From positions 248,001-312,000 of the forward strand of contig NZ_FNVD01000001.1 of the NCBI RefSeq assembly GCF_900108275.1: DNA of 64,000 nt, read 5' to 3'. Made by a program: the position numbers and the translations under genes. Shown here in pieces: positions 1,152 through 24,116 of the stretch. The stretch's first letter is position 1. Every line of letters starts with the position of its first letter. This stretch comes from Jhaorihella thermophila (GTDB taxonomy: Bacteria > Pseudomonadota > Alphaproteobacteria > Rhodobacterales > Rhodobacteraceae). The notes under the pieces are model-generated. The model saw only the letters and a program-made list of their open reading frames with translations. It was not told where the DNA came from and did not search any database.

Positions 1152-2058
1152 TCAGGCGCCGCCGAGCGTAGTGAGGGCGCCGTCGCGGGCGATGAGCGTG
1201 GCGTGGGGGCGGCCTGGCAGGCGGCGCAGCGCGGTCCGGATCTGCCGGCGCGGCATCAGGCAGAACGCGGTCGAGGCGGCATCGGCGATGGTGGCGCTGT
1301 CGGCGGTGACGCTGACGGTGGACCAGCGCGGCGGGGTCGTCCCCCGCGGGTTCAGGATGTGGGATGTGCGCCGCAGCATCATTGCGGCGGGGCCGGAGGT
1401 GGCGATGCAGCGGTCGGTGAACGTGCGGGTGGCGACGAGGCCGCGCGCGGGATCGGCCAGCCCCAGCCGGAACGGGCCGCCGAGGGCCGCGAATTCGCCG
1501 ATATTGACCAGGGCGCGGGTGAAGCCGCGGGCGTGCAGCGCGGCACGGGCCAGGTCGGTGGCGAACCCCTGGGCGATGCCGTTGAAGGTCAACGCCTGGC
1601 CGGGCGCCAGTGCGATGCGGTCGGGGCGGATGACAACCCGGTCGAACCCTACCGCGCGGCGGGCGTCGGCGGGATCCTCGCCGCGCGCCAGCGCCGCCCA
1701 AAGCGGCTGGATCGTGGGGTCGAACAGCCCGTCCGTTGCGACATGAACCACCGCGGCGGCCTCCATGAGGTCGATGAATTTGCGATCCGGGTCAACGAGT
1801 TGCCCCTCTCTGTTGAGGTGCGAAAGGGCTGAGCGAGGGTCGTAGATGCTGAAGAGCTGTTCGACCTCGACCAGCAGCGCGCGGATTTCGGCGATCGCGG
1901 CGCGCGCCTGTGGTTCGGGGGCGTGGAAGGGTCAGGCTCACCTCGGCGCCGAGCGCGCGGCCCTGCCAGCGGATCGGCGGCGCGGGCGCGGCGGTCGGGC
2001 CGATGGCGGCGGTTGCGGCGGCCAGCGCGATGAAGCGGCGGCGGTTGAGCCGGGTCAT
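1152..2058 (-). pseudogene. apbE: ApbE/NosX-like FAD:protein FMN transferase, frameshifted
   Basis: Would attach FMN covalently to a Thr of an exported flavoprotein, most likely the NosR-like protein whose stop codon overlaps this start (ATGA). The start at 2058 encodes a twin-arginine signal (LNRRRFIALAAA), so the product would be periplasmic like NosX. The reading frame breaks near 1925: after GAEVSLTL the expected HAPEPQARAAI lies in the next frame, restored by removing one base. Downstream, conserved ApbE features follow: FSIYDPRSALSHLNREG, then DGLFDPTIQPLW, NGIAQGFATD and the final third to a TGA at 1152. Rejoined, it is about 301 residues, normal for the family. The lesion is in a short CC pair, not a long homopolymer, so either a true mutation or a sequencing indel is possible. 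Confidence 0.82.
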
Positions 2059-4115
2059 TCGGCGGCCTCCATGGGTCTGCCGTTGCGCCGACGCCGGTCG
2101 AGGATCAGCGGCACGCAGCGGCTGGAGCTGTTGTGGATCGTTACGCAGTCGAGGCAGGCGAAACATTCCGAATAGGTGATGGCCCCGTCGGGGCGGATCG
2201 CGCGATACCTGCACTGCACGCGACAGAGCTGGCAGGGGCTGCCGCATTCGGCGCGCCGGGCGATCCATTTGCGGCCGCGCAGCAGGCCTCCGATCGCCAT
2301 GAAGGCCCCCAAGGGGCACAGATAGCGGCAGAAGCCCTTGAACAGAAACAGCCCCGAGACCAGCCAGAACCCGGCATAGAGCACATAATACCAGTCGCGC
2401 ACGAAGAAGGTGGTGATCGCGGTCTTGAAGGGTTCGATCTCGGCCGCCTTGTCCACGTTGTCGGGGGTGATGAACACCGTCGCCACCAGCCCGGCGAGGG
2501 CGATGTATTTCAGCCCCTTCAGCCGGGCGTCCCATTTTGCCGGCAGGTCGAACTGCGGTAGGCGCAGCAGGCGGCCCAGATGGTGGGCGAATTCCTGCAA
2601 GGCTCCGAACGGGCAGAGCCAGCCGCAGAAATAGCCGCGCCCCAACAGCACGAAACCGAGGATCGCAAAGCCCCAGATCAGCAGCGAGAACGGATCATAG
2701 AGCAGGAAGGCGTAGCTGCCGCCCTCCCGCGCGGCGCGGATCGCGCCCAGAACCGTGACGATGGAGAGCTGCCCTTGGCCCCACCAGCCGATGAAACCGG
2801 TGACGACCGCCAGAATTGCTAGGCGCGCGGGGGTAAAACCCTTGTGATCGGCCAGCGGGTTCATGCGAGGGGCCAGAACGGCGGTGAGGCCGACCAGAAA
2901 GAGGCTCAGCACGATCAGGTCGCCCCGGCGGTTGCGCAGCGCGTCGAGCCAGGGCGGGGCGGCTTCGACCTTGCCGGAGCGAACAAAGAACCGTTCCGGC
3001 GTGGCATGCGGCACCTCGATCGTGACGGATCCGGTTTCGGGCTGGAACATGCCGTGTTCGCGCACCGCCAGCACCCTGAGCGTCCAGGGGCTGGCCGGGT
3101 CGAAGCCCAGCCGCCGGTCGGTGCGCAGGATCATGGCGACCCCGTCGTGCATCTCGGGCGGCAGGTCGTCGGACAGCTCCACCAGCAGGTCACTGTCGCG
3201 CAGCGCCACCGGAAGCCCGCCCTGTTCGGCGGTCAGCCAGTCGGGCGCGGTGTTGCGCACGAATTCGGGGCTGACCAGCCCGTGCCGGCCGGTTTCGATC
3301 AAGAGAATCGGCTCTTCGTCCGGCGAGAGTTCAAGAAATCCCTGCAACTCCTTGAATCCGCTGTCGGACAGAACTGCGCGGGCAATGGATTTCGGGCCGA
3401 CATCCACCACCCACAGGTCCAGATAGGGGGCGTCTGGGTTCTCTCTGGCCTCGGGGTCGTCGTCCTCCCAGAGCGTGCCGTCGAACATCGCGTCGATATC
3501 TGCATTGGTGACCACCTTGTGCGTGACGATACCGTGGTCCAGCAGATCGGCCCAGGTCAGCGGCTCGTCGTGTTCGGGGTCGGGGTGGGCGGGCGGTGTG
3601 GTGTTGATGCCCTTCATCTTTTCCCGCGCCACGGCCAGCGCGGCGGCCATGATCGATTCATGGGCGATGCGCACCGACGCGGTCGCCTTGGTCACGCCGT
3701 CCAGATAGACCAGCGACCCGCCGCCGCCCGCGCCGTAGGGGGTGCCCACGACGATCGAGTCGGAAATCGACAGCCCGCCATATTGCTGAAGGAACTGGCG
3801 AAAGGGGGCCTCGCCCAGTCCCGACACGAAGATCGGTTCGTTCTGCTCGATCAGGCGGACGTCGATGAAGCGGCCTTCGAGATCAAGCACCACCAGCATG
3901 TTGATCGGCGCGCCGGAAAAGCCAGGCAGCGGGGCCAGCGGTTCGGTTTCGAACACATAGCCGGCCAGCGCGCCGCCGGAGTTCAGCAGCTCGTGCACGC
4001 CGCGATCGTTCAGCGGCTTGCCGACCGAATAGGGCGGCATCACGTATTCGGCGATCTGTTCGGCCGTCATCGGTTCGGCCCGCGCAGGGGCGGGCGGAAG
4101 CACCGACCAGATCAT
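2055..4115 (-). CDS. NosR/NirI-family membrane flavin and iron-sulfur protein
   Basis: About 686 residues. The periplasmic N-terminal half is an FMN-binding domain with the flavinylation-type motif DGVTKAT (residues about 139-145, Dxx(T)xAT; acceptor Thr probably 145). The C-terminal half has several membrane segments (from about residue 400) with CGWLCPFGA and CRYLCPLGA motifs and ends in two ferredoxin-like cysteine clusters (CGSPCQLCRVQC and CFACLDC). NosR and NirI use this layout to pass electrons across the inner membrane in denitrifiers. Here there is no nosZ or nirS nearby; the gene is back to back with pqqA and followed by apbE. The start is odd: the only in-frame ATG leaves a stub of a signal peptide (cut after ARA), while in-frame upstream residues RVAAGALALLV look like a hydrophobic core without any ATG/GTG/TTG. 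A CTG start or small lesion is possible. Confidence 0.82.
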   Translation of the reverse strand: MIWSVLPPAPARAEPMTAEQIAEYVMPPYSVGKPLNDRGVHELLNSGGALAGYVFETEPLAPLPGFSGAPINMLVVLDLEGRFIDVRLIEQNEPIFVSGLGEAPFRQFLQQYGGLSISDSIVVGTPYGAGGGGSLVYLDGVTKATASVRIAHESIMAAALAVAREKMKGINTTPPAHPDPEHDEPLTWADLLDHGIVTHKVVTNADIDAMFDGTLWEDDDPEARENPDAPYLDLWVVDVGPKSIARAVLSDSGFKELQGFLELSPDEEPILLIETGRHGLVSPEFVRNTAPDWLTAEQGGLPVALRDSDLLVELSDDLPPEMHDGVAMILRTDRRLGFDPASPWTLRVLAVREHGMFQPETGSVTIEVPHATPERFFVRSGKVEAAPPWLDALRNRRGDLIVLSLFLVGLTAVLAPRMNPLADHKGFTPARLAILAVVTGFIGWWGQGQLSIVTVLGAIRAAREGGSYAFLLYDPFSLLIWGFAILGFVLLGRGYFCGWLCPFGALQEFAHHLGRLLRLPQFDLPAKWDARLKGLKYIALAGLVATVFITPDNVDKAAEIEPFKTAITTFFVRDWYYVLYAGFWLVSGLFLFKGFCRYLCPLGAFMAIGGLLRGRKWIARRAECGSPCQLCRVQCRYRAIRPDGAITYSECFACLDCVTIHNSSSRCVPLILDRRRRNGRPMEAAE

Positions 4116-4184
4116 GACGAGAAGAGCCAGCGCGCCGGCTGCTACCCTGGAGCCGGAGGAAACCCAGCCAGTGGAGGATGAAGG

Positions 4185-4292
4185 ATGGCCTGGAGCGCAC
4201 CGAAACTGAAGGAAGTCAACTGCGGCATGGAGATCAACATGTATTCTCCGTCCGAGGACGAGGGCCGAGACTACGAGCGCGACCTGTTCTGA
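4185..4292 (+). CDS. pqqA: PqqA, precursor peptide of PQQ
   Basis: 35-residue ribosomally made precursor whose Glu and Tyr are joined and excised to form pyrroloquinoline quinone. The peptide starts MAWSAPKLKEVNCGMEI and contains the required E-x3-Y pair (Glu16 and Tyr20, within EINMYSP). A GGAGGA ribosome site lies a few bases upstream. It is the first gene of pqqABCDE, 25 bases ahead of pqqB. Too short for most gene callers, but the sequence is diagnostic. Confidence 0.96.
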   Translation: MAWSAPKLKEVNCGMEINMYSPSEDEGRDYERDLF

Positions 4293-4317
4293 GTCGCCCC
4301 GACACGGCAGGCCCGAG

Positions 4318-5205
4318 ATGAAATTCCTGGTTCTGGGCGCTGCGGCGGGGGGCGGATTGCCGCAATGGAACTGCGGCTGCCGCAACTGCGTCGATGCCCG
4401 GGCCGGACGGATCCCGTCTTCGGGCCAGTCGTCGCTGGCCGTGTCCGCCGATGGCGGGCGTTGGTCGGTCCTGAATGCCTCGCCCGATATCCGGGCGCAG
4501 ATGCAGGCCAACCCCGCGCTGCATCCGCGGGGTCTGCGCGACACGCCGCTGCATTCGGTTCTTCTGACCAACGGCGATATCGACCATGTCGCGGGGCTGC
4601 TGAGCTTGCGCGAACAGACCCCGTTCACCGTGTTCGCCACAGCCGAGGTACTGGAGGTTCTGGCGGGCAACCGCATCTTCGACGCCCTTGCCGCGGACAA
4701 GGTCGCGCGGCGGCCGATCCGGCTGAACACGCCGTTCGACCTGCAACCGGGCCTGACGGCGGAACTTTTTCCGGTGCCCGGAAAGGTGCCGCTCTACATG
4801 GAGGGCGAGGAGGTGGAGACAGACCTCGTGGGGGAACAGACCGTGGGCGTGCGGCTGAGCGACGGCGCCAGGGTCGCCTGCTACATCCCCGGCTGCGCCG
4901 AGGTGACGCCGGATCTTCTGGCGCGGATTTCGGATGCGGATCAGCTGTTCTTCGACGGCACGCTGTGGACGGGTGACGAGATGATCCGCGAAGGCACGGG
5001 AACCAAGTCCGGTCGGCGGATGGGCCATATCTCGATCAGCGGACCCGAAGGGTCGATGGCGAAACTGGCCGGGTTGGGCGCGGCGCGGACCTACATCCAC
5101 ATCAATAACACCAACCCGGTCTGGCAGCCGGACGGGCCCGAACGCGCGGCGGTTCAGGCGGCGGGCTGGACCATTGCCGCCGATGGCATGGAGATCACGC
5201 TATGA
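4318..5205 (+). CDS. pqqB: PqqB, PQQ biosynthesis protein
   Basis: 295-residue metallo-beta-lactamase-fold protein of PQQ synthesis, thought to hydroxylate a tyrosine-derived intermediate. The start MKFLVLGAAAGGGLPQWNCG and the CRNC cysteines that follow are the family signature, and LTNGDIDHVAGLLSL carries the metal-binding Asp/His. The protein is intact and of normal length. Its stop overlaps the pqqC start by four bases (ATGA), indicating translational coupling. Confidence 0.96.
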   Translation: MKFLVLGAAAGGGLPQWNCGCRNCVDARAGRIPSSGQSSLAVSADGGRWSVLNASPDIRAQMQANPALHPRGLRDTPLHSVLLTNGDIDHVAGLLSLREQTPFTVFATAEVLEVLAGNRIFDALAADKVARRPIRLNTPFDLQPGLTAELFPVPGKVPLYMEGEEVETDLVGEQTVGVRLSDGARVACYIPGCAEVTPDLLARISDADQLFFDGTLWTGDEMIREGTGTKSGRRMGHISISGPEGSMAKLAGLGAARTYIHINNTNPVWQPDGPERAAVQAAGWTIAADGMEITL

Positions 5206-5949
5206 ACGCCCATGATCCGAAACCCGCGCAATCGCTCGAAGACCGCCTGCGCGGGATCGGCGCCGAGCGGTATCACGACAAGCACCCGTTCCACCAGCGG
5301 CTGCACAGCGGGCAATGCACGCCCGATCAGGTGCGGGCCTGGGTGATCAACCGCTGGGCCTGTCAGGCGGCGATCCCGATGAAGGACGCGGCCTTCATGT
5401 CGCGCTGCGCCGATCCCGACATGCGCCGCGCCTGGCGGTCGCGGATCGAGGATCACGACGGCGGCGTGGACGAGGGGGGGCGGTATCCGGCGCTGGCTGA
5501 AACTGGCCGAGGCGGTGGGGCTGGACCCCGATTACGTGGCCAGCGGGCGCGGCGTGCTGCCGGCCACGCAATTCGCGGTGGACGCCTATGTGCGCTATGT
5601 GCGCGACATGCCGCTGATCCAGGCGGTGGCGTCCTCGCTGACGGAACTCTTCGCGCCGAAGATCCACGAGCAGCGGATCGAGGGGCTGCTGCGACATTAC
5701 GATTTCGCCAATGACGACAGCCTGTCCTATTTCCGCAAGCGGCTCTCGGAGGCGCCGCGCGACGTGCAATTCGGGCTGGCCTGGGTGCTGGAGCACGCCG
5801 ACACGCCCGAGAAAGAGGACATGGCCTGCGAGGCGCTGATCTTCAAGACCAACGTGCTGTGGGCGCAGCTCGATTCGCTGTGGCACGCCTATGTCGAACC
5901 CGGCCACATCCCGCCCGGCGCCTGGCGGCCCGGCGAAGGCATGGCATGA
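5202..5949 (+). pseudogene. pqqC: PqqC, pyrroloquinoline-quinone synthase, frameshifted
   Basis: Cofactorless oxidase that performs the final eight-electron oxidation and ring closure of PQQ. Frame 1 reads MNAHDPKPAQSLEDRLRGIG through the helix with NRWACQAAIPMKDAAFM and IEDHDGGVDEGG, then breaks in a run of seven G at 5474-5480. Removing one G restores GGIRRWLKLAEAVGLDPDYV, and the rest (TELFAPKIHEQRIEGLLRHY, then [13 protein letters not shown]) continues to TGA 5947-5949. The rejoined length, about 248 residues, is that of the family. As written PQQ could not be completed. A homopolymer miscall is a serious alternative to a real mutation; slippage in the run could also produce some full-length protein. 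Confidence 0.88.
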
Positions 5950-6245
5950 GCGCGCCCATGCGGCTGGAGCTGGCCCCGGCCGAGCGCCCCTTTCTGCCGC
6001 GCGGCGTGCGCATGGCGCGGGACCGGGTGCGGGGCGGCGCGGTTCTGCTGGCTCTGGAAAAGGCGATCGCGCTGGACGCGATCGGCGAGGCGATCCTGTC
6101 CCGCGTCACCGGCGAAGCGACCTTCGCCGAGATCGTCGCCGACCTTGCCGCGACCTATGACGCCCCGGAGGGGCGGATCGCGGAGGACGTGCAACGCTTC
6201 TTCGTCGGACTGCGCGCGCGGCGCTATCTGGAGGTGCGGTCATGA
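5946..6245 (+). CDS. pqqD: PqqD, PqqA-binding chaperone
   Basis: 99-residue RiPP recognition element that binds the PqqA peptide and presents it to the radical SAM enzyme PqqE. Starts [20 protein letters not shown] with [13 protein letters not shown] following, and has the typical winged-helix end ([16 protein letters not shown]). Start overlaps the pqqC stop (ATGA), and its stop overlaps pqqE in the same way. Intact. Confidence 0.93.
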
Positions 6246-7351
6246 CAGTGCAGCCGCCGCTTGCCATGCTGGCCGAGCTGACCCATCGCTGCCCGCTGGC
6301 CTGTCCCTATTGTTCGAACCCCGTGAACCTGCAGGGCAGGGATACCGAGCTGGACACTGCAATCTGGGCCGACGTGTTCGCCCAGGCGGCCGAACTGGGC
6401 GTGTTGCAGCTGCACCTGTCGGGGGGCGAGCCGGCCTCGCGCCCCGATCTGGTGGAACTGACCGCGGCGGCGGCCGAGGCGGGGCTTTATACCAACCTCA
6501 TCACGTCCGGCACCGGTCTGACGCCGAAACGGCTGGACGCGCTCGAGGCCGCGGGGCTCGACCACATCCAGTTGTCGCTTCAGGGCACCAGCGCCGCGCT
6601 GGCCGACCGGATCGGCGGCTACAAGGGCGGGTTCGACCGCAAGATGGCCGTGGCAGAAGAGATCAAGCGGCGGGGAATCCCGCTGACGCTGAACGCGGTG
6701 ATGCACCGTCTGAACATGGACGATCTGGAGCGCGCCATCGAAATGGCGGTGGAACCGGGCGCGCGCCGGCTCGAGGTCGCCTGCGTCCAGTTCCACGGCT
6801 GGGCGGCCGAGAGCCGCGACGCGCTGATGCCAACCCGAGAACAGACCGAGGCGGCCAAGCGCATCGTGGCGCGCGAACAGGCGCGGCTGCGCGGGGTTCT
6901 GGCCTTCGACTTCGTGCCGCCGGACCATTACGCCGACTACCCCAAGGCCTGCATGGGGGGCTGGGGCTCGACGGGGCTGAATGTCAGCCCCGACGGCACC
7001 GTGCTGCCCTGTCATGCGGCCGAGAGCATCCCGCATCTGCGTTTCGACAATGTGCGCGACAAGAGCCTGCGCGAGATCTGGTATGACGGCGCGGCCTTCA
7101 ACGCCTATCGCGGCACCGACTGGATGCCCGAACCCTGCGCGGGCTGCGAGCGCAAGGAGATCGACTTTGGCGAATGCCGCTGTCAGGCCATGGCGCTGGC
7201 CGGCGATCCCGCGCAGGCCGATCCGGTCTGTCGCAAGTCGCCGGCGCATGGCAGGGTGACAAGGATACTGGACCGGCTGGCCGAAAACGACTCAGTCGAT
7301 ACGCTGCGATACAGGCGATATCCGGCCAGGGCCGATATGCGGCAGGAGTGA
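6242..7351 (+). CDS. pqqE: PqqE, radical SAM peptide cyclase
   Basis: 369-residue radical SAM enzyme that forms the carbon-carbon bond between Glu and Tyr of PqqA. The radical SAM cysteines CPLACPYC are at residues about 17-24, the SAM-binding GGEP motif follows ([14 protein letters not shown]), and the C-terminal SPASM domain supplies extra iron-sulfur ligands ([16 protein letters not shown] and a later VCRK). Full length and intact. Last gene of the pqq cluster. Confidence 0.96.
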
Positions 7352-7498
7352 TTCTGGAAACAATCATTCAAATTTTTCGGCGTTGTCGTCAGAGCGAGTT
7401 CAAAACTCCCCAGATTTGGGGAGGCTGTGCATGAAGGTTTTTGATTCGGGCCCCATTTGCGCCACAATCTTGCCAAAGTGTAAATTGGATGGCGTGAT

Positions 7499-7708
7499 AT
7501 GAAAAAAATGGTTTTCCTTCTGTCGGCTCCTTTGGTGCTGGCCGCGTGCGGCGACAGGACCGAGCGTTACCCTGCCGCCTGGCATCAGCTCAAGGCGGCC
7601 TGCGTCGGGGGCGATTATGCGGCTTGCGCGGATATCGGGCATCAGGCCCGTGCCGCGGCGACACCGCAGCCCGAAAAGATCGTCATTTCCGAACCGATCG
7701 TAGATTGA
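7499..7708 (+). CDS. Small putative lipoprotein
   Basis: 69 residues. The N-terminus MKKMVFLLSAPLVLAACGD is a lipoprotein signal with lipobox LAAC (Cys17). The mature part is short and has two further cysteines in AACVGGDYAACADIG, which could form a disulfide. It lies 150 bases after pqqE on the same strand and is closed by the hairpin at 7771. I do not recognise the family. It may simply be a small envelope lipoprotein unrelated to PQQ. Confidence 0.6.
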   Translation: MKKMVFLLSAPLVLAACGDRTERYPAAWHQLKAACVGGDYAACADIGHQARAAATPQPEKIVISEPIVD

Positions 7709-7770
7709 CGACCGAATTCAGCCGGGGGGCGATCCCGCCCACGGAGGCCGGGCATCCGAAATGCCCAGCC

Positions 7771-7808
7771 TGGGGAAGCCGCCAAAGGTGGCTTCCCCAC
7801 CGTCTTTT
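7771..7808. terminator. Strong intrinsic terminator
   Basis: Stem 7771-7783 pairs with 7787-7799 (one G-T pair, loop AAA) and is followed on the plus strand by a T run (CGTCTTTTTTT). Ends the pqqE/lipoprotein transcript and may also face the minus-strand metG, which stops at 7849. Confidence 0.8.
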
Positions 7809-7848
7809 TTTGGGGGGGGCGGGGTCTAAAGGAGCGGCTGGCCGCGCG

Positions 7849-9567
7849 TTAGTCCCGCTGTCCGGAAAACCGGCTCTGCCATTCCTCGCGCTGTTCATCG
7901 GTGATCTTGGCAAACAGTACATCGGGCACGGTAAACGCATGCCCCGGCGCCAGCGCCTGCAATGCCTGTTCCACGTCATCGGGCCAGCTGTCATCCTGCG
8001 TGCCCATCGCCTGCAGCATCCGTTCGGCGGTGAAGGGGATGAAGGGGGCCGACAGCACCGCGTAGAGCCGGATCAGGTTCAGCGCCAGCCGCACCTGTGC
8101 CGCCGCCGTCTCGGGATCCTCCTTGAAGGTCGCCCAGGGCGCGGCTGACTGCAGGTATTCGTTCCCCGCCACCCAGATCGCCCGCAGCTCTTGCGCGGAC
8201 TTGCGCACCTCCATCGCCTGCATCAGATCCTCATAGGCGCGTATGCGCGCGGTCAGATCGTCGATCAGGGCGCGCTCGCGCTCGCCCCACGCGCCACCCT
8301 CGGGCACCGCTTCGCCGAATTTGGAGCGGCAGAACTTGGTCACGCGGCTGACGAAATTGCCCAGCACGTCGGCCAGATCCTTGTTGACAGATTGCTGGAA
8401 GTTTTCCCAAGTGAATTCGCTGTCGCTGCTTTCGGGGGCGTGGCTCAGCAGCCACCAGCGCCAGTAATCCGCCGGCAGGATCGCCAGCGCCTGGTCCATG
8501 AACACGCCGCGCCCCTGGCTGGTCGAGAACTGGCCGCCGTCGTAGTTGAGGTAGTTGAACGACTTCAGGTGATCCACCAGCTTCCACGGCTCGCGTGACC
8601 CGATCAGCGTGGCCGGAAAGCTGAGCGTGTGAAAGGGCACGTTGTCCTTGCCCATGAACTGGACATAGGTCACGTCCTCGGCGCCCTTGTCGGTGCGCCA
8701 CCAGCGTTCCCATTCCGCATCCGCCGCGCCGCGCGCCTGTGCCCATTCGCCCGCGCAGGAGATGTATTCGATCGGGGCGTCGAACCAGACGTAGAAGACC
8801 TTGCCCTCCATGCCCTGCCATGGCGCGCCCGGAAACTGCGCCGGGATGCCCCAGCTGAGATCGCGGGTGATGCCCCGGTCCTGCAGCCCGTCGCCGTCAT
8901 GCAGCCATTTCTTGGCGATCGAGGTGGTCAGCACCGGCCAGTCGGTCTTGGAATCGATCCATTTGTCCAGCTCGTCGCGCAGCAGCGACTGGCGCAGATA
9001 CAGGTGTTTCGTCTCGCGCACCTCAAGATCGGTCGAGCCGGAAATGGCGCTGCGCGGCTCGATCAGGTCGGTCGGATCGAGCTGCTTTGTGCAGTTTTCG
9101 CACTGGTCGCCCCGGGCCTTGTCATAGCCGCAATTGGGACAGGTGCCTTCGATATAGCGGTCGGGCAGGAACCGACCGTCGGCCTTGGAATAGACCTGTT
9201 TTTCGGTCACCACCTCGATCAGCCCGTTTTCGCCCAGAACCTTGGCGAAATGCTGGGTCATGCGGTGGTTTTGGGGGCTGGAGGAGCGCCCGAAATGGTC
9301 AAAGCTCAGCCCGAAGCGGCGGGCGATGTCGGCCTGCACCTGATGCATTTCGGCGCAGTATTCGGCGACCGGCTTGCCGGCCTTGGCGGCGGCGAGTTCC
9401 GCCGGGGTGCCGTGTTCGTCGGTGGCGCAGAGAAACAGAACCTCGCGCCCGCGCCCGCGCTGGTAGCGGGCGAACAGGTCGGCCGGCAGCTGGCTGCCTA
9501 CCAGATTGCCCAGGTGCTTGATTCCATTGATGTAGGGAAGTGCCGAAGTGATGAGATAGCGTTTCAT
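7849..9567 (-). CDS. metG: Methionyl-tRNA synthetase
   Basis: 572-residue class I synthetase charging tRNA-Met. The HIGH-type motif is HLGN within [13 protein letters not shown], the zinc knuckle is [17 protein letters not shown], and the KMSKS-type motif is the FSTS variant ([15 protein letters not shown]), as in several bacterial groups. There is no C-terminal EMAP tRNA-binding domain, which fits the length. ATG 9567 is chosen because [18 protein letters not shown] is the conserved start; the open frame runs further upstream. Confidence 0.96.
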
Positions 9568-9731
9568 GTCTGGCAGGCCCGCGATTTTCCGGTTCGCGCG
9601 TCCCTTAGCAGGCGCGCCGCCAAAGCGCCAGATGGCGCGTGCCCGCCCGAATGCGCCATGCGGCATGGCGGCTCTGGACCTTGGCCGCGCTTTGGTCCAT
9701 ATCTGCCCCGACCAATGGCCGGAGGCACCTC

Positions 9732-10118: not shown

Positions 10119-10133
10119 GCGGGGTCCGAACCG

Positions 10134-11670: not shown

Positions 11671-11678
11671 TCCGGCGG

Positions 11679-13028: not shown

Positions 13029-13038
13029 GGGGGCCGCC

Positions 13039-14240: not shown

Positions 14241-14371
14241 GGCCCGCACTGTGGCGCGTATTTCTACGGAATTGAAGGGCCAACCGGCCCCGCGCTACAG
14301 TCCCGCGCGAGACGGCGCGGGGCGCGCGCCGGGACATTCCGCCCCTTTGGGCGCATTCGGAGGAGTTTCAC

Positions 14372-15532: not shown

Positions 15533-17037
15533 ACCTCGCGGTCTGGCTGCACCGTCAGGCCCAGGCCAGGCCCGACCGGCCGGCGCTCTATGCGGGGCGC
15601 GATCTGGTGGCCGATTACGCCGCCTTCGCCGCCCGAGCGGCGGCGGTGGGGGCGTGGCTGCGGGGGCAGGGGGTGCGCCCCGGCGACCGGGTGGCGATCT
15701 TCATGAAGAACGCCCCGGACTACCTGATCGCGCAATACGGGATCTGGTATGCGGGCGCGGCCGCCGTGCCGATCAATGCCAAGCTGCACGGGCGCGAGGC
15801 GGCCTTCATCCTGGAAAACTCCGGCACGCGGCTGGCCTTCACCTCGCCCGGCCTGACCGAGGCGCTGCAGGCGGCGGGCGTGTCGTGCCCGCTGGTGGAC
15901 ATCTCGGACGACGACTGGGCGCGGGTGCAGCAGGCCGAACCGCTGCCCGAACCCGTCCCCCGCGCGCCGGACGATCTGGCCTGGCTCTTCTACACCTCGG
16001 GCACCACCGGCCGGCCCAAGGGGGTGGTGATCACCCACCGGATGCTGATCGCCGTGTCGCTGGCCTATTTCACCGACGTTGACGCGGCCAGCGGCGCGGA
16101 CGCGATCCTCTACGCCGCGCCGATGAGCCACGGCGCGGGGCTTTACAACATGCTGCACGTTCTGGTGGGCGCGCGCCATGTCTGCCCGCCCTCGGGCGGC
16201 TTCGACCCCGCCGAGATCTTCGACCTGGCCCGCCACCACGGCCGCGTCCACATGTTCGCCGCCCCCACCATGGTAAAGCGGATGACCGAGGCCGGCAGGG
16301 CGGCGGGCGAAACCGGCGAGGGCCTGCGCACCATCGTTTATGGCGGCGGCCCGATGTATGTGGCCGACATCCTGCAGGCGGTGGACCATTTCGGCCCCGT
16401 CTTCGTGCAGATCTACGGCCAGGGCGAATGCCCGATGGGGATTACCGCCCTGTCGCGGGACGAGGTGGCCGACCGCACCCATCCGCGCTGGCGCGACCGG
16501 CTGATGAGCGTCGGCCGCGCCCAAGCCCCGGTCGAGCTGCGCATCGGCGCGGTGGACGGCACCCCGCTGCCGCCGGGGGAAGTGGGCGAGATCATGGTGC
16601 GCGGCGACGTGGTGATGCCGGGCTACTGGCAGAACCCCGAGGCGACGGCAAAGACCCTGCGCGACGGCTGGCTGATGACCGGCGACATGGGGTTCATGGA
16701 CGAACACGGCTATGTCACGCTTCAGGACCGGTCCAAGGACGTAATCATCACCGGCGGCTCGAACGTCTACCCGCGCGAAGTGGAGGAGGTGCTGCTGACC
16801 CATCCGGCCGTGCGCGAGGTCTCGGTGGTCGGCCGCAGGCACCTCGACTGGGGCGAGGAAGTCGTGGCCTTCGTCGTGGGTGACGCCGATCCGGCGGAAC
16901 TGGACCGGCTGTGCATCGACCGCATCGCTCGGTTCAAGCGCCCCAAGGACTACCTGTTCTTGCCCGAATTGCCGAAGAACAACTACGGTAAGGTGCTCAA
17001 GACCGAGCTGCGCAAGCTTCTGGAGGACGGACAATGA
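15529..17037 (+). CDS. Acyl-CoA synthetase (AMP-forming)
   Basis: 502-residue adenylate-forming enzyme. P-loop-like motif YTSGTTGRPKGVV at about residues 155-167, A5-type YGQGECPMGI, the ATP-binding LMTGDMGFMDEHGY, and the C-terminal catalytic Lys in KNNYGKVLKTELRK. It would activate a carboxylic acid as its CoA thioester. Between the thiolase and the SDR with four-base overlaps on both sides, so the three act on one substrate series, perhaps a short or branched acid. Confidence 0.87.
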   Translation: MNLAVWLHRQAQARPDRPALYAGRDLVADYAAFAARAAAVGAWLRGQGVRPGDRVAIFMKNAPDYLIAQYGIWYAGAAAVPINAKLHGREAAFILENSGTRLAFTSPGLTEALQAAGVSCPLVDISDDDWARVQQAEPLPEPVPRAPDDLAWLFYTSGTTGRPKGVVITHRMLIAVSLAYFTDVDAASGADAILYAAPMSHGAGLYNMLHVLVGARHVCPPSGGFDPAEIFDLARHHGRVHMFAAPTMVKRMTEAGRAAGETGEGLRTIVYGGGPMYVADILQAVDHFGPVFVQIYGQGECPMGITALSRDEVADRTHPRWRDRLMSVGRAQAPVELRIGAVDGTPLPPGEVGEIMVRGDVVMPGYWQNPEATAKTLRDGWLMTGDMGFMDEHGYVTLQDRSKDVIITGGSNVYPREVEEVLLTHPAVREVSVVGRRHLDWGEEVVAFVVGDADPAELDRLCIDRIARFKRPKDYLFLPELPKNNYGKVLKTELRKLLEDGQ

Positions 17038-17837
17038 CGGATCTGAGCGGCAAGACCGCGCTGGTGACCGGTTCGGTGCAGGGGATCGGGCTGGCCATCG
17101 CCGAGGAACTGGCCAAGGCCGGCGCGCGGATTGCGGTGCATGGGATTGCGGGGGATGCGCAGATCGAGGAAGTTTGCGACCGCCTGCACAAGGCGGGCGC
17201 GCCCCAGGCCGAGTATTTCCCCGGCGATCTGCGCCATCCCGACCGCATCGCCGAGCTGATGGAGGCCGTGGCCGCCTGGGGCGGTACGGACATTCTGGTG
17301 AACAATGCCGGCATCCAGCGCACCGCGCCCTTGGTCGAAATGCCGCGCGACACCTGGGACGAGATCCTGTCGGTGAATCTCTCGGCCGCCTTCCAGACCA
17401 TGCAGGCCGCGCTGCCGCGCATGGCCGAACGCGGCTATGGCCGGGTCATCAACATCGCCAGCGTGCACGGCCTCGTCGCGTCAAAGGAAAAGGCGCCCTA
17501 TGTGGCCTCCAAATTCGGCCTCGTCGGCCTCAGCCGGGTCGCCGCGCTGGAATATGCCGCCACCGGCAGCCGCGAGGCGGGCGGCGTGACGGTGAACTGC
17601 ATCTGCCCCGGCTGGACCGAAACCGCGATCATCGAACCCCAGGTGGAGGCCCGCGCCGCACTTTTCGGCGGCGACCGGAACGCGGGCATCGCCGATCTTC
17701 TGAAGGAAAAACAGCCCAGCCTGCGAATCTCCGACCCGTCGGAGATCGGCGCGCTGGCGGTCTGGCTCTGCAACCCCATTGCGCACAACGTGACCGGCAC
17801 CGCGATTCCCGTGGACGGCGGCTGGACCGCGCAATAA
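17034..17837 (+). CDS. SDR oxidoreductase, 3-hydroxybutyrate dehydrogenase-like
   Basis: 267-residue short-chain dehydrogenase. NAD-binding TGSVQGIGLAIAEEL, NNAG motif (LVNNAGIQRTAPL), and catalytic Ser/Tyr/Lys in NIASVHGLVASKEKAPYVASK. The sequence around GGVTVNCICPGWTETAIIEPQ and LKEKQPSLRISDPSEIG resembles D-beta-hydroxybutyrate dehydrogenase, which fits with a thiolase and a CoA ligase as a beta-hydroxy acid catabolic set. Substrate inferred only. Confidence 0.85.
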   Translation: MTDLSGKTALVTGSVQGIGLAIAEELAKAGARIAVHGIAGDAQIEEVCDRLHKAGAPQAEYFPGDLRHPDRIAELMEAVAAWGGTDILVNNAGIQRTAPLVEMPRDTWDEILSVNLSAAFQTMQAALPRMAERGYGRVINIASVHGLVASKEKAPYVASKFGLVGLSRVAALEYAATGSREAGGVTVNCICPGWTETAIIEPQVEARAALFGGDRNAGIADLLKEKQPSLRISDPSEIGALAVWLCNPIAHNVTGTAIPVDGGWTAQ

Positions 17838-17901
17838 CGCCCAGGCGGTCGCATCGGTCCGCGACCGCACGGACGGGTGCCGGTGTCGATCCCCCCTGTC
17901 T

Positions 17902-17924
17902 CTTCATCTTGCCGAAAATACTCC
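17902..17924 (-). repeat. Dispersed GTATTT...GAAG element, copy 2 (tail of composite repeat)
   Basis: On the minus strand GGAGTATTT, short spacer, GCAAGATGAAG. This is the end of the composite repeat that runs back to 18084 and includes the 47-base tandem units and the palindrome. It fills the space between the convergent SDR and kinase genes. Confidence 0.7.
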
Positions 17925-17937
17925 GGGGGAGCGCGAG

Positions 17938-18053
17938 GGGGCAGCGCCCCCTCGCCTCGCCTGACTGTGCGCCTGTGGCGCAACGGGGCAGCGCCCCCTC
18001 GCCTCGCCTGACTGTGCGCCTGTGGCGCAACGGGGCAGCGCCCCCTCGCCTCG
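17938..18053. repeat. 47-base tandem repeat, two and a half units
   Basis: Two perfect 47-base units (17938-17984 and 17985-18031) and a partial third (18032-18053). Each unit starts with a small GC hairpin (GGGGCAGCGCCCC) and continues with CTCGCCTCGCCTGACTG and a short inverted segment (TGCGCCTGTGGCGCA). Sits inside the composite extragenic repeat between convergent genes and could add extra terminator hairpins. Identical units suggest recent duplication. Confidence 0.85.
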
Positions 18054-18055
18054 GT

Positions 18056-18076
18056 CGGATTGGCCTTGCCAATCCG
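18056..18076. repeat. Palindrome CGGATTGGC...GCCAATCCG
   Basis: Nine-base perfect inverted repeat with loop CTT. The same palindrome with the same flanks (TTTCGG side and CGACCGAGGCG side) occurs at 58286-58306 in the other large composite repeat. Confidence 0.8.
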
Positions 18077-18112
18077 AAACAGCCTCCACGCAACCCGGAT
18101 CAGCGCCCCTCG

Positions 18113-20314
18113 CTAACCCGCGCTTTGCAGCAGAAATTCACGCAGGACGCCGGGATCGAACGGCTTGTGCACCAGCCGTGCCCCGATCCGCTCGCACAGA
18201 TCGGCCAGATCGCTGGAGCGGTTGGCCGAGATCACGCAGGCCGGCAGGGGGCCGTAGCGCGCCCGCAGGCGGATGATGGCATCGGTGCCCAGCCGCCCGT
18301 CATCCAGCTGATAATCCACCACGATGACGTCCGGCGCGATATCCACCTCTTCCAGCAGCGCCATGGCCTCGGCCTCGTTCGCGCAGGGAAAGACGTCCAC
18401 GCCCCAGTTCTCCAGCGTGACCGCCACCGCGTTGCGCAATTCGTCATCGTTCTCGATCAGCAGAACGATGCGCTGTCCCAGATTCGAACCGGCCGGCATC
18501 CCGTCCTCGGGGCGTATCTCATCCGCGCCGGGTCGCGAGGCCAGCGGCAGGCTGACCGCAAAGCGCGTGCCATGCCCCTCTTGCGAGACAAGCTCCAGCG
18601 GGTGGTTCAGCAGGCGGCAGGCCCGGTCCACGATGGCCAGCCCCAGCCCCATCCCGTCGGCCGCGCTTGCCGCCGCGTTCAGGCGGTGGAACTCGGCGAA
18701 TATCTCCTCCTGCTGGCTTTCGGGAATGCCGGGGCCGGTGTCCCAGACCTCCAGCCGCACCCCCGGGCGCGCCCGCCGGACGCCGACCAACACGCGCCCG
18801 GTTTCGGTATAGCGCACCGCGTTCGACACCAGGTTCTGCAGGATCCGCCGCAGATAGGCCGCGTCGCTGCGCACCACCGCGCGGCTGAGCACGATGCGGA
18901 AATCCAACCCCTTGCGCGCCGCCACCGGTCCCAGTTCATCGGCCATCTGCCGCAACAGCAGATCCAGCCGCACGTCGGACAGGTGCACCTCCGCCTTGCC
19001 CGAATCGAGCTTGGAGATGTCCAGCAGCGCCCCCAGGATTCCCTCGACGCTGCGGAGCGCATTCTCCGCCTTGTCCAGCCGCTGTTTCAATTCCGCTTCG
19101 TCCGTGGCGCTGCCGATGGAGGCAATGTAGAGCTTGGCCGCCGAAAGCGGCTGCAGCAGGTCATGGCTGGCCGCGGCCACGAAACGCGACTTGGAGGCGT
19201 TGGCCCGTTCCGCTTCGGCCAGCGCGTCCTCAAGCTCCAGCGTCCGCTCCATCACGCGCCGTTCGAGCGTCTCGTTGACGTCCGATATCGCCCGCATCGC
19301 GGCCCGTTCCGCCGAAACGTCGGTAAAGCTGATGACAAAACCGCCATCGGGCATCCGCTGCGCGAACACCGTCAGCACCCGCTGCGCGCCGATCTCGATC
19401 TCCATCGACAGCGGGGCGTGGCGCTCGTCGCTGGCCACCCAGTCCAGCAGGATCTGCGCGTCAAAGGCATGGGCAAAGCGCACCTCGCGCTTGAGCTGGT
19501 CATAGACCGTCCGAAACGAGGTGCCGACGTGAAACCGGCCCATCGGCAGCGACAGGAACTCGCCCACCCGCCGGTTCCAGCCGATCAGCCGGTCCTTGCC
19601 GTCGAAGATGCAGACACCCTGGTTGAGATGTTCCAGCGTGGCGCGGATCAGCCGGGCCTGGTCGTCGCGCAGCTTTTCGCGTTCGCGCCGTTCCAGCCGC
19701 ACCATGTCGGTCACGTCCGTCTGCACCACCACCGTGCCGCCGTCGGGGGTGCGCTGTTCGCTGACCTGCAGCCAGCGGGCGCCGGCGAGGCGGGCGTTGA
19801 ACGCGACATGATCGTCCCTGTGCCGTTCCATCCGGCGGGCGGCCCAGATCTCGGGTGTCTCGCCGCGCGGCAGGATCAGGAAGGGGCTCTGCGACACCAG
19901 CCGGACATAGTCGGCATAGGCAAGGCCGGGACGGAACAGGTGGTGGATGTCGCGGGTGTGTTCGCCAAAGCGGCTGTTGCAAGTGACCAGCTCGTCCTGC
20001 GGGTTGAACAGGGCGAACCCTTCCTGGATGGTTTCGATCGCGTTCCACAAGTCGGCGCGGGCGGCCTCGGTTTCGGCATTGGCGCGGGCCAGCCGGGCGT
20101 TCGATTCGTTCAGCAGGTCGATCGCGCGTTCCAGCGCCTCGGTGCGGGCGCGGACCTCTTCCTCGAGCATGGCGGCGCGTTCGAACTGGGCATAGGCCAC
20201 GCCGGTTGCGTCCGCGCTCTGCTCGACCCGGCGCATCAGCGTGGTGGCGATCTTCAGCAGCTTCTCGTTCTGCCGCTCAAGGCTGTCGGCGGGGTTGACC
20301 AGCGTGTGCGCCAT
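18113..20314 (-). CDS. PAS-containing hybrid histidine kinase (NahK/ErcS'-like)
   Basis: 733 residues, no membrane segments. N-terminal coiled coil (about 10-90), PAS domain (IETIQEGFALFNPQDELV, about 95-200), second PAS (LNQGVCIFDGKDRLIGWN, about 240-350), HisKA with the phospho-His in SHDLLQPLSAAKLY, HATPase with LVSNAVRY and DTGPGIPESQ, and a C-terminal receiver with phospho-Asp in VIVVDYQLDDG. The SHDLLQPL type and the adjacent FIST gene resemble the NahK-NosP pair of Pseudomonas; NahK is also called ErcS', a regulator of PQQ ethanol oxidation. Start follows the FIST stop by four bases. It probably passes phosphate, directly or by a phosphotransferase, to the LuxR-type regulator in the same operon. 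Confidence 0.88.
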   Translation of the reverse strand: MAHTLVNPADSLERQNEKLLKIATTLMRRVEQSADATGVAYAQFERAAMLEEEVRARTEALERAIDLLNESNARLARANAETEAARADLWNAIETIQEGFALFNPQDELVTCNSRFGEHTRDIHHLFRPGLAYADYVRLVSQSPFLILPRGETPEIWAARRMERHRDDHVAFNARLAGARWLQVSEQRTPDGGTVVVQTDVTDMVRLERREREKLRDDQARLIRATLEHLNQGVCIFDGKDRLIGWNRRVGEFLSLPMGRFHVGTSFRTVYDQLKREVRFAHAFDAQILLDWVASDERHAPLSMEIEIGAQRVLTVFAQRMPDGGFVISFTDVSAERAAMRAISDVNETLERRVMERTLELEDALAEAERANASKSRFVAAASHDLLQPLSAAKLYIASIGSATDEAELKQRLDKAENALRSVEGILGALLDISKLDSGKAEVHLSDVRLDLLLRQMADELGPVAARKGLDFRIVLSRAVVRSDAAYLRRILQNLVSNAVRYTETGRVLVGVRRARPGVRLEVWDTGPGIPESQQEEIFAEFHRLNAAASAADGMGLGLAIVDRACRLLNHPLELVSQEGHGTRFAVSLPLASRPGADEIRPEDGMPAGSNLGQRIVLLIENDDELRNAVAVTLENWGVDVFPCANEAEAMALLEEVDIAPDVIVVDYQLDDGRLGTDAIIRLRARYGPLPACVISANRSSDLADLCERIGARLVHKPFDPGVLREFLLQSAG

Positions 20315-20318
20315 CGCG

Positions 20319-21497
20319 TCAGCCCTCGGCCGGGGGGTAGATCGCCACGCCGGTCAGCGTCTGGTTGACATGCATGGAATTGACCTGCTCGCCATAGGTG
20401 CAGAACCCCACCACCCGGTGCCGCGACAGGATCCGCGACAGCGCGCCGGCCATCTGTTTCTGCTCGGCCTCGACCCGCCGCAGCAGGCAGTCGCAGCCCA
20501 AGATCGTGTCGGGCGCGCCCGGCTCGCTCAGACGCCCCAGTTCGCGTTCCAGGTGCGAAGCCATGTCCTCGGGTTCCGACAGGGTCAGCACCACGCCTTC
20601 GTCTATGGCGGAAAAGAACACCAGGTCGCCATTGTCCGCCACGCGCTGGATCGAGCGCACATGGTGCTGGTCGCCGATGCGCACCACCACCGGGTGCGAG
20701 GCAAAGGTGAAGGTGGTCAGCTGCTCGGGATCCTTGCCCAGGATCCGGGCATATTCCCGCGCCGCCGGTTCGGCGTTGATCTCGTGCACCACGCGGCGGG
20801 CGGGGTCGGCGCCGGTCACGACCATGCGGGTTTCGGTGGGGATCAGGTGATCGGTCTTGAACACCCGGATCGGGCATCGGGTGCGCACCTGCACCAGCAC
20901 GGCGGCGTTTTCCAGCGCCTGCCCGTCATGCAGCACGAAGGTGCGTTCGAACCGGGTGCCGTCGCCCGCCGAGCCGCCAAAGAGCGGCACCGGCCCCAGC
21001 CCCAGCGCGATGTCCGACACCAGCGCGTCCTCGCGCGTGCTCAGCCCGTCGATCATCAGAAAGATGAACTCCGACCCCCAGCCGGGTTCCTCGGCCGCCA
21101 GCGCCCGGCGCGACCGGATCATGCGGTGGATGATGTCGGTGCCGTCGAAGCGGTCCAGGTCCGGAACCAGGATCGTGCGCGCGATGAAATGCGACCGGGG
21201 CAATCCCAGCGCGACGATTTCGCCCTCGGCATAGCCGTGCTGCGAGATTTCCCCGGCCGTGGTGCAGCCGACCACCCGCGCGGGGGCCAAGCGGTCGCGG
21301 GCGGCGGCGATCAGCGCGGCCACATCGGTGCGCGGGCAGGCGAAGAGGATCACGATCTCGAACGGGGTGTCGCCCAGGCCCCGCGCCAGGGTCTCGACCG
21401 CATCCGCCGCCCGGCAATCGGCGACCGCCGTGCGCACGATGCGTCCGGTCCCGGCCTCGCCCAAAGGCGCGTCCGTCAGGCCATTGATCTGGTTCAC
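20319..21497 (-). CDS. FIST domain sensor protein (NosP-like family)
   Basis: 392-residue protein with FIST-N (about 20-210: VVGCTTAGEISQHGYAEGEI, FGGSAGDGTRFERTFV) and FIST-C (about 220-380: LGCDCLLRRVEAEQKQM, VVGFCTYGEQVNSMHVNQT). FIST proteins are cytosolic ligand sensors; NosP in this family binds haem and nitric oxide and controls a partner kinase. GTG 21497 is chosen because a GGAGGAG ribosome site lies just before it; an ATG nine codons upstream is possible. Lies between the response regulator and the hybrid kinase in one operon. Whether this one binds haem, NO or a small alcohol/aldehyde-related ligand cannot be read from sequence. Confidence 0.87.
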   Translation of the reverse strand: MNQINGLTDAPLGEAGTGRIVRTAVADCRAADAVETLARGLGDTPFEIVILFACPRTDVAALIAAARDRLAPARVVGCTTAGEISQHGYAEGEIVALGLPRSHFIARTILVPDLDRFDGTDIIHRMIRSRRALAAEEPGWGSEFIFLMIDGLSTREDALVSDIALGLGPVPLFGGSAGDGTRFERTFVLHDGQALENAAVLVQVRTRCPIRVFKTDHLIPTETRMVVTGADPARRVVHEINAEPAAREYARILGKDPEQLTTFTFASHPVVVRIGDQHHVRSIQRVADNGDLVFFSAIDEGVVLTLSEPEDMASHLERELGRLSEPGAPDTILGCDCLLRRVEAEQKQMAGALSRILSRHRVVGFCTYGEQVNSMHVNQTLTGVAIYPPAEG

Positions 21498-21526
21498 CGC
21501 GTCTCCTCCCCGTGGTCGCGGCAAGT

Positions 21527-22219
21527 CTAGGTTGCCGGGGGGCCCTCCTGCAAGGCGTTCGGAAAGCTCGATTCCTTGGCGATCAGCACCGCCTGCGTGC
21601 GGCTTTGCACGCCCAGTTTGCGCATGATCGCAGTGACATGCGCCTTGACCGTGGTTTCGGCGATCGACAGGTCATAGGCGATCTGCTTGTTCAGCTTGCC
21701 TTCGCAGATCAGTTGCAGGATCCGCGCCTGTTGCGCGGTCAGCGAGGCCAGCCGCGCCGCCGCGTCGGTCTGTTCGGCGGTCGCCGTGTCGTCCAGCAGC
21801 ACATGGCCGGCGGGAATGAACTGTTCGCCCCGTGCAAGCGCCCCGATCGCCTGCTGAAACACGTCGCGCTGGCTGTGCTTGGGTACGAACCCGTTGGCGC
21901 CGGCATGGATGGCCGAGCTGATGATCCGGTTGTCGGCCATGGACGACACGACCACGATCGGCGCCCCGGTGGCGCGGCGCAGTCGGATCAGCCCGTCCAG
22001 CCCGTTCACGTCGGGCAGGTTCAGGTCGAGCACGATCAGATCCGGCCCGGATCCGCCGGCCATCCGGTCCAGGGCGTCGGCCAGACAGGCCGCGGTTTCG
22101 ATCCGGCGGATGCCGGTTATCGCCTGCAGCGTCATCGACAGCGCATCGCAAAACAGCGGATGGTCGTCCACGATCAGCGCCGATTGAAAGCCGTTTGCAT
22201 CTGAGCCGCTTTGGGTCAT
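21527..22219 (-). CDS. NarL/LuxR-type response regulator (AgmR-like)
   Basis: 230 residues. Receiver domain 12-130 with phospho-acceptor Asp65 (VLDLNLPD) and Lys in GFVPKHSQ; LuxR helix-turn-helix at the C-terminus (LTAQQARILQLICEGKLNKQ, AETTVKAHVTAIMRKLGVQS). It is the first gene of a regulator-FIST-kinase operon and lies just beyond the PQQ dehydrogenase terminator. Pseudomonas AgmR/ErbR, a regulator of the same type, controls PQQ ethanol dehydrogenase, so this is the likely activator of the dehydrogenase and perhaps of coxS via the shared upstream motif. Confidence 0.9.
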   Translation of the reverse strand: MTQSGSDANGFQSALIVDDHPLFCDALSMTLQAITGIRRIETAACLADALDRMAGGSGPDLIVLDLNLPDVNGLDGLIRLRRATGAPIVVVSSMADNRIISSAIHAGANGFVPKHSQRDVFQQAIGALARGEQFIPAGHVLLDDTATAEQTDAAARLASLTAQQARILQLICEGKLNKQIAYDLSIAETTVKAHVTAIMRKLGVQSRTQAVLIAKESSFPNALQEGPPAT

Positions 22220-22270
22220 GCCTTTGCCGGTTTGTCTGCTTTGCCCCAGCCTATCAAAGGGGGAGGCCGG

Positions 22271-22300
22271 GGAAAAATAGGCATTAGGTCGTAGGAGGAA
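22271..22300 (-). promoter_or_regulatory. Shared motif site A (response regulator upstream)
   Basis: Minus-strand CCTACGACCTAATGCC followed by TATTTTT, 52-80 bases before the response-regulator start. It matches sites B and C in the ACGAC core and the downstream AT-rich part. Consistent with an activator site for autoregulation; inference. Confidence 0.45.
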
Positions 22301-22303
22301 GAA

Positions 22304-22334
22304 AAGGCGCGCGCCCAAGGAGGACGCGCGCCTT
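22304..22334 (-). terminator. Intrinsic terminator of the PQQ dehydrogenase
   Basis: Perfect ten-base stem (AAGGCGCGCG with CGCGCGCCTT, 11-base loop); on the minus strand it is followed by TTCTTCC. It lies 22 bases after the dehydrogenase stop and separates it from the response-regulator operon. Confidence 0.75.
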
Positions 22335-22355
22335 GATCCGACAACGGGCGAGATA

Positions 22356-24116
22356 TCAGTTGGCGGCCATCTGCTTGGGCAGCTTGAAGGTCCAGAGCAT
22401 GCCGCCCTGGTTGAGATAGTTGACCTTCTTGGCCACTTCGCCGCCCCACAGCGGCACCGCGCCGCCCCAGCCGGAGATGACCGAGACATACTGTTCGCCG
22501 TCCATTTCCCATGTGATCGGCTGGCCGACGATGCCCGATCCGGTCTGGAAGCTTTACAGCACCTCGCCGGTTTCGTCGTCGAAGGCCATGAACTTGCCCT
22601 CCGGCGTGCCGGTAAAGACAAGCCCGCCGGCGGTGGCCATCACGCCGCCCCACAGCGGGGCCTCGTTCTTGTATTCCCACACGATCTTGCCGGTATCGGG
22701 GTCGATCGCCTTGAGGCTGCCGATGTGGTCCTCGTAATTGGGCTTGATGGTGAAGCCCGCGCCCAGATAGGCCGCGCCCTTCTTGTAGGTGATCGGCTCG
22801 TTCCAGATGTCCATGCCCCATTCGTTGCTGGGCACGTAGAAATTGCCGGTGCGCTGGCTGAAGGCCATAGGCATCCAGTTCTTGCCGCCCAGGAAGCTGG
22901 GCGAGGCAAAGATCACTTCGCCCTTCTTGCCGTCGGCCGCGTCGCGGGGATCGCCGGGGCGGTTGTCCTCGTTGAAGATCGGGCGGCCGTTTTCGTCGAT
23001 GCCACTGGCCCAGGTGATGTCCTTGACAAAGGGATAGGCGGCGACGAACTTGCCGTCCTCGCGGTTCAGGACATAGAAGAACCCGTTGCGGTCGGCGGTG
23101 GCGAAACGCTTGTTGCCCTGCCGGTCGGTATAGGCGATCACCTCGTTCACGCCGTCATGGTCCCAGCCTTCGCGCGGGGTGGTCTGGAAATGCCACTTGA
23201 TCTCGCCGTTATGCGGGTTCAGGCCCAGCCGCGAGGCGGCATAGAGGTTGTCGCCCGAGCCGTCGTTCTTCTGCCCCGCATCGCGCAGCCAGCTGTTCCA
23301 GGGCGCGGGGTTGCCGGTGCCAAAGACCAGAGTGTCGGTGTCGATGTCGTAGGACCCGCCCAGCCAGGTGGCGCCGCCGTCGGTCTTCCACATGTCGCCC
23401 GGCCAGCTGGCGTTCAGCGTGCCGGTCATGGTGCTTTCCTTGCCCTTGTAGGTGCCCATGTGGCTTTCGATCACGGGCCGGGTCCAGACCAGTTCGCCGG
23501 TTTCGGCGTCACGCGCCTGCACTTCGCCGACGATGCCGAATTCACCGCCCGAATTGCCGGTGATCACCAGCCCGTCCACGATGATCGGCGCGGCGGTGTA
23601 GGAATAGCCCGCCTTGTAATCGGCGATCTTCTTGCGCCACTTGACCTTTCCGGTCTTGCGGTCCAGCGCCACGATGCGCGCGTCCAGCGTGCCGAAATAG
23701 ATGTTGTCGCCATAGATGGCCGCACCGCGGTTGATCACGTCACAGCAGGGCAGGATGCCTTCGGGCAGGCGGGCGTCATATTGCCAGATCTCCTCGCCGG
23801 TCCTGACGTCGATGGCATAGACGCGGCTGTAGGATCCGGTGATGTACATCACCCCGTCATAGACCAGAGGCTGGGTCTCCTGTCCGCGCTGCTTTTCGCC
23901 GCCAAGGCTGAAGGCCCAGGCGGGGGCGAGGTTCTTGACCGTGTCCTTGTTGATCTTGTCCGGCGGGCTGTAGCGCTGAAGATGGCGCCCCATGCCGTTG
24001 GTGACCACCTGCGAGGTATTGGCCTGGTCGTTCTTCAGATCGTCCTCGGTGACGCCGGCATGGGCCATGCCCGCTGCCATGACACCCGCGACGACCAAGG
24101 TGATAAACCGGTTCAT
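22356..24116 (-). pseudogene. PQQ-dependent alcohol dehydrogenase, lanthanide type, with in-frame stop
   Basis: Periplasmic eight-bladed quinoprotein oxidising alcohols, like ExaF/PedH. Signal peptide [20 protein letters not shown]; vicinal disulfide Cys124-Cys125 (ILPCCDV); catalytic Asp319 and the extra metal-ligand Asp321 in GWDHDGVNE, the D-x-D pattern of lanthanide-dependent enzymes; PQQ-region motifs GTGNPAPWN and [21 protein letters not shown] at 22554-22556 (codon 521) interrupts the frame: TGEVL[15 protein letters not shown]. The same frame continues with conserved residues to TGA 22356, 586 residues in all. One base change (for example TAC to TAA) would explain it. The missing 66 residues include the last conserved propeller blade, so a truncated product is unlikely to fold. 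No haem motif CxxCH, so it would pass electrons to a separate cytochrome not seen here. Confidence 0.88.

Follow-up and report, generated by a model that had tools for sequence, protein, structure and literature searches.

Disruption of genes of one PQQ system at two unlinked loci in Jhaorihella thermophila suggests that PQQ-dependent alcohol oxidation is being lost

Results

A pqqABCDE operon with a broken pqqC

The window analysed here is a 64-kb stretch that corresponds to positions 248001-312000 of contig C44 (677,390 bases) of the draft genome of Jhaorihella thermophila (G000), an assembly of 3,771,953 bases in 69 contigs that is 99.95% complete. Coordinates without a contig name refer to this window. 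A pqqABCDE operon is located on its plus strand in the gene order known for such operons, and four of the five genes are open and exceed their NCBIfam cut-offs, in agreement with the original prediction that they are intact: pqqA (4185..4292; TIGR02107), pqqB (4318..5205; TIGR02108), pqqD (5946..6245; TIGR03859) and pqqE (6242..7351; TIGR02109). The region differs from the known operon in that pqqC (5202..5949, plus strand) is broken, and in that a NosR-like gene and an apbE gene lie divergent from it. The two pieces of pqqC correspond to positions 4-88 and 86-238 of TIGR02111, are in different frames, and join at the run of seven G at 5474-5480 where a frameshift had been predicted. They score 127.9 and 232.0 bits, while an intact PqqC is expected to score above 240 bits in one frame. 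This gene in two pieces is the sole pqqC of the genome. For the relatives we determined, in 90 loci, whether the two pieces of a gene, when both were found within 400 bases, lie in a single frame, and this was the case for pqqC in 24 out of 24 loci.

The divergent pair that adjoins pqqABCDE is located on the minus strand and consists of an open gene for an FMN/4Fe-4S membrane protein (2055..4115) and an apbE-type flavin transferase gene (1152..2058), whose start is overlapped by the former. The membrane protein scored 450 bits against NF046105, which has a cut-off of 1000 bits, and is hence referred to as NosR-like and not as NosR. The apbE gene starts at the minus-strand ATG at 2058, and its first frame (MTRLNRRRF...EVSLTL) matches the relatives up to about residue 44, after which it continues as unrelated residues, the remaining protein being encoded in another frame. 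The longer piece (1155-1928, 258 residues) matches PF02424 with an E value of 1.2e-44. The frame change, seen at about 1926 and previously predicted near 1925, is outside any long run, and apbE was in one frame in all 14 loci of relatives in which both pieces were found. Among the best 80 of 590 dehydrogenase loci (see below), the fetched flanks contain the NosR-like gene in 22 and apbE in 24 cases, and because of the latter count we consider apbE to be part of this neighbourhood. The genome contains three ApbE genes including the broken one, which may be partly replaceable by the other two.

An in-frame stop in the only full-length PQQ alcohol dehydrogenase gene

An ExaF/PedH-like PQQ alcohol dehydrogenase gene is present on the minus strand (22356..24116), and is interrupted by an in-frame TAA at 22554-22556 that is preceded by 520 and followed by 65 of its 586 codons. 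Both parts are in the same frame, which bears out the earlier description of a nonsense codon with conserved protein on both sides that no indel explains. The part before the stop scores 698 bits against TIGR03075 (cut-off 480), covering positions 4-498 of a profile of 530, and is thus recognised as a member of the PedH/ExaF kind; as the TAA falls before the last 65 codons, the propeller is not complete with its last strands. The gene was compared with the best 80 of 590 dehydrogenase loci, which come mainly from Rhodobacteraceae of the Roseobacter kind (Actibacterium, Ruegeria, Phaeobacter, Tateyamaria and other genera) and to which it is 79-89% identical over the best segment. In all of these 80 loci the gene parts are in one frame and the codon at the stop site is TGG, encoding tryptophan. 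The change from TGG to TAA requires not one but two adjacent substitutions, and may have occurred either as one tandem event or as a second change in a gene that had already been stopped. On the plus strand it reads as a tandem change of CC to TT, the sort of change that is known for UV damage.

The solved structures closest to the dehydrogenase are PDB 6zcv and 6zcw, both titled quinoprotein ethanol dehydrogenase, which we take to be PedH of Pseudomonas putida, and in the comparison with solved structures the protein is nearer to PedH than to the XoxF entries. The Asp-x-Asp motif aligns as WDHDG in the J. thermophila protein and WDFDG in 6zcv, and is presumably of the lanthanide type. This gene is the only full-length PQQ alcohol dehydrogenase gene of the genome; two other matches, at 19 kb of contig C48, are weak and, judging from their translation, BamB-like.

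Three open regulatory genes follow on the same strand. They encode a LuxR-type response regulator (21527..22219; PF00072, PF00196), a FIST-domain sensor (20319..21524; PF08495, PF10442) and a NahK/ErcS'-like hybrid histidine kinase (18113..20314), whose matches to NF041831/NF041832 are below the cut-off. Among the best 80 of 590 loci, these genes are found beside the dehydrogenase gene 54, 53 and 53 times, respectively.

A ped-type accessory island on contig C48

If the pathway as a whole is being lost, lesions are predicted in those parts of the system that lie outside the window. In relatives (e.g. locus L007), the accessory island contains genes for a MoxJ-like protein, a cytochrome c, an ABC substrate-binding protein, a beta-propeller protein and a small cytochrome. 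Since these genes are absent beside the J. thermophila dehydrogenase, they were expected to have been deleted; this was ruled out, because a joined query of the relatives' island proteins located the accessory genes at 58-65.5 kb of contig C48, that is, at a second locus of the PQQ system that is unlinked to the window genes on C44. The families identified there include a substrate-binding protein (TIGR03863), a beta-propeller protein (TIGR03866), an ATPase (TIGR03864), the permease PedC (TIGR03861) and PedF (TIGR04494), and the names used are taken from the ped gene cluster of Pseudomonas as presented in the excerpt of PMC12997753 consulted here. The parts of that cluster are the same as those on C48, with the FIST, NahK-like kinase and LuxR regulator genes found in J. 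thermophila beside the dehydrogenase on C44; in contrast to the Pseudomonas cluster, the system is split over two contigs, and two of the island genes are broken.

One of these is the pedA2-like beta-propeller gene, which contains an in-frame TAG at C48:61792-61794, a site at which a sense codon is present in 68 out of 68 relatives (Phe 55, Ile 6, Val 5, Thr 1, Tyr 1). The other is pedC, which has a frame change at a run of seven C (C48:63720-63726), and the pieces of which are in one frame in 56 out of 56 relatives. A stop inside the MoxJ-like gene turned out to be its natural end, 299 codons being open. Two of the nine island genes tested are therefore broken, and the prediction of three lesions, all of which are present, has to be extended to at least five. 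Altogether, five genes of one system, located at two unlinked loci, have disrupted frames where their homologues elsewhere are intact, while the majority of the genes of the system remain open.

Concentration of lesions against the genome background

The frequency of broken genes was determined by a homology test in which proteins predicted from the loci of relatives and from a 1.16-Mb portion of another genome of the family (G004) were used as queries against about 1.0 Mb of this 3.77-Mb genome, genes being testable when identity was at least 45% and 70% was covered. This was the case for 214 genes, 18 belonging to the PQQ system and 196 others. Eight of them were broken, namely four of the 18 PQQ-system genes and four of the 196 others (p 0.002). 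After dropping two non-PQQ genes with a stop at 0.99 of their length, which we regarded as natural ends, the comparison is 4/18 against 2/196 (Fisher p 4.8e-4). Owing to its short first piece, apbE goes unrecorded in this test; counting it in gives 5/18 and p 4.5e-5. As the set of genes had been noticed before it was tested, and the C48 genes alone had been unseen, the fair value is the one obtained with the C48 island alone, 2/9 against 2/196, p 0.0099. Lesions are thus concentrated in the PQQ system beyond the genome background of about 1% for other pseudogenes.

Besides, the whole of C44 (649 coding segments) was scanned for changes in the codon-usage frame with a model whose training used a codon-position G+C rule and which included a correction for stop codons, a procedure that does not flag the in-frame stop of the dehydrogenase gene. 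The scan gave 14 events, and those in apbE and pqqC are the only ones inside the window. The neighbouring genes are whole, as had been stated for the genes surrounding the lesions. According to their translations, the 14 events comprise these two PQQ genes, several gene boundaries or changes of last residues, and about four apparently broken genes. The candidates for the latter, all named from translations, are a surface-antigen-like gene at about 38.9 kb, a FadL-like gene at 86.2 kb, an oxidoreductase-like gene with two changes at 461.2-462.4 kb and a LigB-like dioxygenase gene at 593.4 kb. Events set aside were those at NtrY/NtrX-like and LptD/SurA-like neighbours and at two same-frame neighbours (names again from translations), as well as changes affecting the C-terminal 12-16 residues of a ComEC-like and a lactamase-fold-like protein.

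Several other genes of the genome appear to be interrupted. A membrane-transporter-like gene (C44:415425-416285; L115) has an in-frame stop halfway when compared with two reference proteins, and a sulfatase-like gene, so named from its translation, is apparently split by an in-frame stop (C44:669260-670765; L128). One of the two non-PQQ broken genes that remain in the homology test is transposase-like, judging from its translation. On C48, the stretches at 1.5-5.6 kb and 88-99 kb contain several frame changes and, by reading, encode phage-like and transposase-like proteins.

Changes at conserved sites

Residues that are changed in J. thermophila at sites at least 97% conserved elsewhere were counted in the 13 PQQ-system genes for which at least 20 sequences were available. 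There are 27 of them; the resulting 2.08 per gene compares with a median of 0.67 and ranks this genome 6 of 43; five genomes exceed it in the rate of such changes without broken genes being shown there. Examples from the PedF-like cytochrome are W121R, R124L and L143P; the dehydrogenase carries G246D. The housekeeping neighbours metG, accC, mlaD, aat and accB together carry a single such change, and the corresponding ranks are 9/30, 16/30, 6/15, 8/29 and 12/30. Different comparison genomes were used for the PQQ and the housekeeping counts, so the contrast provides support and not proof. The extra changes suggest that constraint on the PQQ-system genes may have been relaxed. It had been proposed that any decay is recent. 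This holds insofar as the dehydrogenase retains 83-91% identity to its relatives, but the two-step nonsense change and the excess of conserved-site changes indicate that the decay is not brand new.

The PQQ system in related genomes

A search of 296 genomes of the family for pqqC gave matches in 71, of which 68 are single and over the cut-off, two are split and one is weak (G187). A split pqqC is therefore rare (2/70), and is found in this genome and in G048. The broken pqqC of G048 is accompanied by a lesion in pqqB (locus L169, C16:440001-460000, at about 14.7-16.6 kb), which lacks residues 57-165 (about 110 residues) and has a frame change as well. That genome retains matches to pqqA, pqqD and pqqE and a PedC-like permease, and no PQQ alcohol dehydrogenase was found when it was searched; the dehydrogenase gene that is cut in J. 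thermophila is thus gone there. Because its lesions are at other places, the loss in G048 is independent.

Three genomes that are among the nearest by MetG (82-86%), G006, G032 and G039, have an uncut dehydrogenase match and a whole pqqC, and G044 has neither. In G001, the sole other genome of the genus that was compared, we found neither a PQQ alcohol dehydrogenase nor an accessory island, and no pqqE match exceeded the cut-off; since this genome is 89% complete and in 470 contigs, the absence of the system from it is not certain.

Discussion

The genes described above would, by their mere presence in the draft genome, predict that J. thermophila oxidises alcohols with the help of PQQ, whereas their reading frames say that this ability is lost. 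We consider it probable (roughly 0.86) that this lineage is in the process of losing its PQQ-dependent oxidation of alcohols and has been caught midway through the decay of the pathway. The proposal that such a loss would explain lesions across the parts of the system, made from the window genes, is supported by the broken genes in the C48 island. Selection on the periplasmic PQQ alcohol dehydrogenase, or on the supply of PQQ, would have lapsed on this branch, after which pqqC, the pedA2-like gene, pedC and the linked apbE would have been free to gather disabling mutations. From the state of the frames we infer that the cells probably make no PQQ and are unable to oxidise alcohols by the PQQ route.

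The lesions are known from a draft assembly of many contigs alone, and each of them, taken singly, could in principle be an error of sequencing or assembly. The possibility that the apbE and pqqC frameshifts are sequencing errors had already been raised, and two of the three indels, those in pqqC and pedC, are indeed located in seven-base runs of G and C. Yet 32 coding G/C runs of at least seven bases are present on C44 and five on C48, and 35 of these 37 are not at a frame change; the two exceptions, one per contig, both fall in the PQQ system. Moreover, the other three of the five lesions (apbE and the two nonsense codons) are outside runs, the TAA in the dehydrogenase gene required two neighbouring substitutions, and errors should not favour PQQ genes, which are broken in 4/18 cases as compared with 2/196. 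These data lessen the worry about errors without removing it, and leave it improbable that errors account for the lesions as a set. Another explanation is that ordinary background pseudogenes fell into one system by chance. Broken-looking genes do exist elsewhere, such as the frame-change candidates on C44 and the sulfatase-like and transporter-like genes with an in-frame stop. With only about 1% of the genes broken elsewhere, five in the approximately 20 genes of one system would be an unlikely coincidence, and the difference persists when the two dropped genes are retained, which makes this explanation very improbable.

Alternatively, the genes might still work, through slippage at the G/C runs acting as a switch, through readthrough of the stop codons, or through the assembly of split proteins from their two pieces. 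The pieces are otherwise well conserved and the two mononucleotide runs could slip, but the lesions in apbE, the dehydrogenase and the pedA2-like gene are located outside runs. The relatives' pqqC sequences that were compared do not have the run of seven G, so that no conserved switch is seen, and the TAA and TAG replace tryptophan (80 of the best 80 of 590 loci) and sense codons (68/68 relatives), respectively. We regard continued function of these genes as hardly credible.

Loss of PQQ-dependent alcohol oxidation is therefore the reading that we retain. It represents a known process, ordinary pathway decay caught midway, of which J. thermophila provides a good case, and is not a new kind of system. 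In a narrow literature search we found no prior report of decay of this PQQ pathway. In the Roseobacter group, Marinibacterium anthonyi La 6 has an intact xoxF5 that is essential on methanol and ethanol, according to the portion of PMC5934484 available to us; there, a single PQQ alcohol dehydrogenase carries growth on both alcohols, whereas the dehydrogenase gene is broken in J. thermophila. The same portion of PMC5934484 states that many Roseobacters with xoxF5 show no growth on methanol or were untested.

With its intact, decaying and empty genomes, the family may allow the steps in the loss of a cofactor-dependent pathway to be ordered. It is conceivable, at somewhat less than even odds in our judgement, that the intact genomes, J. 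thermophila, G048 and G001 represent successive stages of one kind of loss, with decay beginning in the whole system at once. If this series is true, loss would start neither with the enzyme alone nor with PQQ synthesis alone. The five lesions also provide cheap and precise sites for checking strains of the species. Finally, a protein of family PF07995, which includes PQQ sugar dehydrogenases, remains encoded in the genome (C44:523234-524205), and may be another user of PQQ.
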